A stretch of 64,000 nucleotides of DNA from Tubiluchus corallicola (Eukaryota; Priapulida; Priapulimorpha; Priapulimorphida; Tubiluchidae). Shown piece by piece: positions 62,376 to 63,862 of the stretch. The stretch spans positions 45,648-109,647 of the forward strand of contig JAQGDQ010000705.1 in assembly GCA_030141605.1 (NCBI GenBank), given 5' to 3'. The position numbers were made by a program, and so were the translations under genes. How positions within the stretch are numbered: position 1 is the stretch's first letter; every line of letters begins with the position of its first letter. Under the pieces are notes generated by a model. It made no database searches. It was not told the origin of the DNA and saw only the letters and a list, made by a program, of their open reading frames with translations.

Positions 62376-62522
62376 GAAAATGACGAAGTATTGGTGGCAG
62401 GTTTCGGACGTAAAGGACACGCCGTTGGTGACATTCCCGGAGTCCGATTCAAAGTAGTGAAAGTGGCTAATGTATCTCTGTTAGCTCTGTACAAGGGAAA
62501 GAAAGAGAGACCTCGATCTTAG
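62376..62522 (+). CDS. RPS23: Ribosomal protein S23 (uS12), last exon, + strand
   Basis: uS12/S23 is a small-subunit protein at the decoding centre. After an acceptor (TTTTTAG, ending at 62375) the exon encodes 48 residues, beginning [20 protein letters not shown] and ending [18 protein letters not shown], then TAG. This equals the C-terminal third of animal S23 almost residue for residue and matches the standard 143-residue C-terminus. AATAAA follows at 62572-62577, so the 3' end looks intact. The entry phase is 0, exactly what the exon at 63742-63862 delivers, but that exon is on the other strand. No upstream partner exon was found on this strand in the window. Confidence 0.95.
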
Positions 62523-63741
62523 AAAACAACAATGGGCTGATTGATTATTGTATTTTATTGATTATAGCTTAAATAAATTCGAACCCATCGAATGTGGCTT
62601 GCCTTGGAAATATGTGTGTTGCATTTGTGTGTTTCAAACGTCTGCTTCATGTAGTAAGGAATGCGAAGCATTGAGTTACTCTCTGGCGTTGTTGTAGTAG
62701 TAGTTTTGTTAACACAGTAAATGAATCATTACAGCAGATTTTACAAAAAAGCCTCTAGAAACAACGGGAGGATGAATCGAAGTGCAGCTGATAATTATAT
62801 GTAATTCAATAACAATTTTGATCATTTTTTACACCATAAACGACATGCAAGCCAGAATCCCACATTTAATGGAAGATGTCTCTACATCTTTGTTCTGTAA
62901 GGTAATATGGTAAACGGAGCCAGCTAGACATAAATGTCGTTACCTATCCATGTAATGGCCAGCCTTAAGACTGCGTGACTTTCATGCTAATCACATACCG
63001 TGGCAATTTAACTATTATATCTAGCCACAAATGGAGCAAGGTGCTCATTATCAGGTAAAGTAATAGAACTGTACTGTACTACTTCTCCAGAACTGCCACC
63101 TGGTGGTGTGTTACAATAATTAAAGCATACATTACAAGTTAACGAGGGGCACTTTGCTAAACTTAAATTAATTTAGACCACAAAAAATAGTTAACTGGGC
63201 ACCAATTGTACAGCACTCACTTCACTAGAGAAAAAGAAGAAACTAGTACATAATTTTCGATGTTTATAAAAATTATTTAAAGCAAAACCGGACCCAATCT
63301 TAAACTGTACATCAAAACAATCTACTCTTTAAAATAATGAAAGGAAATATACTATTTTTTTCACAAATGACTTGCACAAAAGGATTACTACCACACAAAC
63401 AGAATTTCGCGTTTGCGCCACTAGTTTAATGCTTTTAGTAAACACGTAACATCCTTGCGGAATGCTTTTGCTGTTAAAAATGAGTGTTAGTTTGTGATGT
63501 CATCAATAGTTGGTTAATTGAGATTCTAATCTCTTATTTACTTATCACAAACGCTCTTGCAGTATTAATTGTGTTAAAATGTATACTTTTTATCGGATTT
63601 AAAAATGGGATAGGATATGAAAAATCATCCCGTCTTCCTTTGAATTGTTTTTCACATTTCTCAGAGCAATAATCAACGTGTAAACACTTCTCAAAAGTGC
63701 CAGAGAATCTACATACGAATATCCTGCGACACACCACTAAC
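62523..63741. other. Segment between the two S23 exons
   Basis: This contains the S23 3' untranslated sequence and AATAAA at 62572-62577, and AT-rich DNA with no second copy of the last exon on either strand. If exon 3 has been flipped, one breakpoint lies between 62578 and 63741. I see no obvious inverted repeat at a breakpoint. Confidence 0.5.
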
Positions 63742-63862
63742 CTCAATAAAATTTAAGCAACCGTCTCTGGGTACGAAAGCTGTGATTTTTTTCCCATTTT
63801 TAATGAGCTGAACTCTGACGCACTTCCTGATGGCAGAGTTAGGCTGCTTGGCTTCTACTCCA
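63742..63862 (-). CDS. RPS23: Ribosomal protein S23 (uS12), middle exon, - strand
   Basis: This 121-nt exon runs from an acceptor (GTTTACAG at 63870-63863) to a donor GTTAGT at 63741. It encodes [20 protein letters not shown] and then [20 protein letters not shown]. It includes the universally conserved PNSA loop of uS12 and ends in phase 0 just where animal S23 continues with ENDEVLV. The first exon (about 55 residues) would lie beyond the right edge. The expected next exon is not present downstream on this strand; it is found on the + strand at 62376-62522. One residue is odd: Arg (AGA) stands where animal and yeast S23 have Asn in VPNDGCLN. Confidence 0.95.

Follow-up and report, generated by a model that had tools for sequence, protein, structure and literature searches.

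RPS23 exons at the right end of the window

The stretch of DNA analysed here, referred to as the window, is 64 kb long and corresponds to positions 45648-109647 of contig C1389, and its right edge is the end of that contig (109647 bases). It contains no N bases and, from its genes, which besides RPS23 include REV1 on the plus strand and STOML2 on the minus strand, we infer that it is animal nuclear DNA. No tRNA genes and no Rfam families at gathering scores were found in the window; no relatives were found among viral contigs, and among genome contigs the best 80 of 472 related loci are archaeal by title. On the minus strand, long ORFs at 10858-12501 presumably resemble a hAT/ZBED-type transposase (a Pfam scan of one of them, the 232-aa ORF at 10858-11553, gave no match), and 50903-51652, which has no Pfam match, and 54605-54916 are apparent exons of one gene. 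Long (GA)n arrays occupy 1043-1131 and 1368-1516.

Two RPS23 exons lie within the last 1.7 kb of the contig, and both have counterparts on another contig of the same assembly, C608:

62376-62522, plus strand: last coding exon of RPS23 (ENDEVLVAG...KKERPRS, stop), a copy of C608 about 23786-23640
63742-63862, minus strand: RPS23 coding exon (GVEAKQ...CLNFIE), identical to C608 25742-25862

When the 64 kb were searched by tblastn with a human RPS23 sequence, positions 62376-62519 (+) matched residues 96-143 with 48/48 identities (E 3e-27), and positions 63861-63742 (-) matched residues 56-95 with 39/40 identities (E 8e-22). No further RPS23 exon was found in the window by this search, all remaining matches having E values of at least 1.6. 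Over the 88 full codons of both exons, 87 residues are identical to human, and the single difference is Asn to Arg, the Arg being present in PDB 4v6w, which we take to be a fly ribosome. The plus-strand exon is preceded by an acceptor (TTTTTAG/GAA) and ends in a TAG stop, with AATAAA downstream at 62572; the minus-strand exon is flanked by a donor (GAG/GTTAGT) and an acceptor (TTTACAG/T), and the missing splice between the two exons is in phase 0 on either side. Both exons match eukaryotic uS12 and have canonical splice sites. The window does not hold a complete collinear RPS23, only these two exons on opposite strands. Because the frames and splice signals are intact and the agreement with human is this close, the arrangement described in the initial annotation, namely two RPS23 exons on opposite strands with matching phases, is correct and not due to chance, and tblastn bears out its further statement that no second copy of either exon appears where a normal gene would need it. 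As a control of collinearity, nine REV1 and four STOML2 tblastn hits were obtained in the window, and each set is collinear and lies on one strand. A literature search found nothing relevant on RPS23 intron positions or trans-splicing, or on split ribosomal-protein genes.

The RPS23 locus of contig C608 and its copies in the window

The question was decided by looking for another RPS23 elsewhere in the genome, a check that the initial annotation had itself proposed. The genome search, which took in the assembly of 343.5 Mb in 2344 contigs, placed minus-strand matches to RPS23 on C608, in normal order, at 27106-26945, 25861-25739 and 23810-23643. These are counted as three coding exons, the start-codon exon lying outside what was sought; the match at 23810-23643 extends a few codons into the intron and hence contains one stop. 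Five weaker matches elsewhere in the assembly (36-46% identity) are, we infer, bacterial or organellar S12. Because a normally arranged copy is present on C608, there is no sign of the broken essential gene that had been suggested. In addition, among the best 40 of 9471 candidates for a 6-kb query from the C608 locus, the end of C1389 is the only near-identical second copy; what else matched in this set was a repeat of 420 bp (94-96%) and weaker repeats.

The last 2.06 kb of the window are a mosaic of three pieces of the C608 RPS23 locus, in the orientations (+), (-) and (+):

61942-61964, plus strand: templated filler, 23/23 nt identical to C608 24283-24305 (+)
61957-62804, minus strand: reversed segment, equal to C608 24205-23358 save two single-base differences (62057 and 62513)
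62805-62809, no strand: inverted junction, within 22 nt (62798-62819) over which the two C608 sites match imperfectly
62810-64000, plus strand: end segment, 1191/1191 identical to C608 24810-26000, reaching the contig end

The entry junction has an overlap of 2 nt (61942-61943), and both switches between C608 pieces, the first with an 8-nt overlap (61957-61964) and the second within the 22-nt imperfect match, are inverted. Divergence of this tail from C608 ranges from 0 to 0.24%, and the difference at 62513, within the plus-strand exon, is synonymous. C1389 stops just short of a tandem array present in C608. The window lacks about 0.6 kb of intron, from C608 24206 to about 24797-24809, save for the 23-nt scrap in opposite orientation.

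According to the initial annotation, flipping a single segment, with its right break between 62578 and 63741, would restore an ordinary minus-strand gene. The right break indeed lies in this range, at 62805-62809, and the opposite strands might suggest a balanced inversion allele of a single RPS23 gene, in which all sequence would be present, one segment flipped and both flanks conserved. However, because the C608 intron sequence is absent from the window, no single flip restores the gene and there is no balanced inversion; moreover, the sequence left of 61942 comes from another locus and is not RPS23 flank, and the segments derive from a locus on a different contig. Such an allele is therefore extremely improbable.

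A further reading is that transcripts of the two strands are trans-spliced, so that the split RPS23 still functions. Reports on mod(mdg4) in Drosophila describe opposite-strand exons joined by trans-splicing (PMC4528330, PMC4667647, PMC12692577), and one of them proposes that trans-splicing preserves broken genes (PMC4667647). The RPS23 exons resemble this published precedent in that exons of one protein lie on opposite strands with good splice sites (PMC4528330, PMC4667647, PMC12692577), and here they are intact with matching phases. A case of this type would lack an intact cis-spliced copy, whereas C608 carries three coding exons in order (the start-codon exon being outside the search), so trans-splicing is hardly needed. 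Unlike mod(mdg4), the pieces are near-identical copies of the C608 gene, known from sequence alone, in a mosaic arrangement with intron missing. An inverted pair of 89 bp at 75% identity (57616-57704 and 63279-63367), the sole pair found with an arm to the right of the exon, was considered as a possible trace of an old inversion with staggered breaks; if true, this would have implied that RPS23 was kept alive while split. This candidate was rejected, as its right arm also lies in the intron of the C608 gene; the arm occurs once more on C608, and on C1802 and C1743 as well. With the dating of an old inversion fallen, a trans-spliced RPS23 deserves hardly any credence.

Two compositional observations were made in the same region. 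In CpG and strand skew, composition seemed to change near 62710, a weak signal that 5% of random stretches equalled and that is superseded by the exact junction at 62805-62809. A CpG-rich zone at 61401-62900 was rejected as a possible promoter, being partly a dispersed repeat; this repeat (61957-62329, about 370 bp) has dozens of genome copies at about 76-80% and lies directly before the last RPS23 exon.

Probable continuation of the locus in contig C1247

The sequence to the left of the mosaic is shared with a third contig, C1247, and the features that bear on its continuation are as follows:

59550-60581, no strand: dispersed repeat halves (59550-59891 and 60203-60581; directly abutting in other copies) flanking 311 bp of LINE-like sequence, without a break at 60047
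60047-61943, plus strand: sequence common to C1247 64878-66774, 1896/1897 identical, with the difference at 60177
61087-61148, plus strand: candidate first exon (62 bp), the next three in-phase exons lying on C1247 66926-68699

Beyond window position 61943, where the C608 pieces begin, C1247 runs on with different, non-RPS23 sequence. The candidate exon joins C1247 66926-67041, 68029-68118 and 68624-68699 in phase and with GT-AG signals, the splice sites having been chosen by eye. The resulting candidate gene, with four in-phase candidate exons split between two contigs, would encode a coiled-coil-like product of 114 residues, for which no convincing family match was found. It lends moderate support to the view that the locus may continue into C1247. 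Because C1247 diverges at 61943 and carries the later exons of the candidate gene, the RPS23 tail is probably not the true continuation of the C1389 locus.

C1247, the witness for this continuation, is itself chimeric-looking at 64878, which counts against reading the tail as an artefact. In the part to the left of this position (2.9 kb read of 64.9 kb), the sequence is bacterial-looking and intron-free and is joined directly to the animal locus. Within it, Pfam recognises a beta-eliminating lyase domain (E 5.6e-54) in an uninterrupted frame of 381 aa, for which NCBIfam matches stay below cut-off; there is also a fragment with weak similarity to KdsC, short of the curated cut-off, and an ORF of 237 aa that looks membrane-like and has no family match. 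GC content is 40% on the left of the junction versus 32% on the right. The junction at C1247 64878 is a probable bacterial-to-animal misjoin, a transferred segment being the less likely explanation.

On a first reading, C1247 was considered as the donor of 60047-61943; this was dropped, as the repeat around 60047 looks intact in the window. Sequences like 59550-59891 and 60203-60581 abut directly in at least 18 copies on at least 17 contigs, by manual count among the matches listed, and a C608 copy of the LINE-like sequence is continuous across window position 60047. For these reasons C1389 looks intact at 60047 and genuine up to 61943, the break at 64878 belonging to C1247. In a copy on C2328, among the matches listed, sequence like 59891-60046 lies about 400 bp past the left half, which suggests that the repeat also occurs in longer forms; an in-register join within the LINE-like repeat at 60047 is possible.

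Neither window 40000-46000 nor 56000-60046 has a near-identical second copy, the next best matches being 91% (among the best 40 of 3366 candidates) and 89% (among the best 40 of 5422), respectively. Three contig ends were examined: the right end of C1389 is chimeric, and no such patch is present in the initial 6 kb of C1389 or the initial 4 kb of C608. C608 1-4000 and C1495 3776-7947 are 96% identical (94% over the last part) and are probably two haplotypes kept in the assembly, an overlap that suggests high heterozygosity; if so, alleles differ by about 4-6%. Because this exceeds by far the divergence of the RPS23 tail, the tail is close to this very C608 haplotype.

Origin of the contig end and its meaning

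Overall, the opposite-strand RPS23 exons very probably reflect an artefact of the library or the assembly where the contig ends, rather than a broken essential gene; the joining apparently occurred at one of these stages and not in the animal. The genuine C1389 locus would run to about window position 61943 and probably onward into what is at present C1247 from 66775, and the last 2.06 kb of C1389 would be a chimeric tail made of the three C608 pieces. This tail would most likely stem from a chimeric DNA molecule formed when a 3' end was displaced from its template and primed again on strands close by, by way of short complementarity, and the assembler would have retained it since nothing at the contig end outvoted it. 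Of the possibilities raised in the initial annotation (real inversion, assembly misjoin, two partial loci), the misjoin is the best supported, and the real inversion founders on the absent intron and on segments taken from the locus of another contig.

Artefacts of this kind are known from multiple displacement amplification, where, according to Lasken and Stockwell (2007), more than 85% of chimeras (406/475) are inverted, complementarity of 2-21 nt is present in more than 70%, and the main type is inverted switching between nearby sites with an intervening deletion (PMC1855051). The RPS23 tail shares with the chimeras described there the inverted joins, segments less than 10 kb apart, the intervening deletion and junction complementarity of 2-21 nt, and it has a near-identical source, C608, elsewhere in the same assembly; the difference is that those chimeras are single reads of E. 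coli, whereas the tail belongs to an assembled animal contig (PMC1855051). Further support comes from C1247, which offers another continuation at exactly 61943, where the candidate gene continues in phase, and whose bacterial-looking to animal transition at 64878 is a second suspicious join in the assembly. The two single-base differences between the minus-strand piece and C608 count against an artefact.

Microhomology-mediated break-induced replication makes templated insertions, and in vivo microhomology-mediated template switching would leave the same marks as amplification chimeras. The tail might therefore be a real, very recent templated insertion, in which such switching in the germline would have placed copies of three RPS23-locus pieces in the C1389 locus, in alternating orientation beside an unrelated gene. 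It would be seen before any decay, as a dead fragment whose function is served by C608. The serial switches, short overlaps and templated filler would fit this origin, the chain of short copied pieces with orientation flips and microhomology is what break-induced replication of this kind produces, and C1247 might represent a second allele that lacks the insertion. However, with the tail identical or nearly so to C608, when the presumed haplotypes C608 and C1495 are only 94-96% identical over the first 4 kb of C608, such an insertion would need to be of extremely recent date, and it would have to lie exactly at the contig end; unlike the products of break-induced replication, the tail has an alternative continuation and is known from the assembly alone. 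An artefact is favoured because the tail sits at a contig end, competes with another continuation and has hardly diverged from C608, and a fresh insertion in the animal appears unlikely, though less so than an inversion or trans-splicing.

With an artefact as the preferred reading, the biological weight of the opposite-strand exons is small, as RPS23 is normally arranged elsewhere in the genome. For users of the assembly, however, the end of C1389 would simulate a partial RPS23 paralogue and an inversion, neither of them real, and the probable bacterial-to-animal misjoin of C1247 could pass for horizontal transfer. Both contigs point to chimeric joins that are worth screening for.
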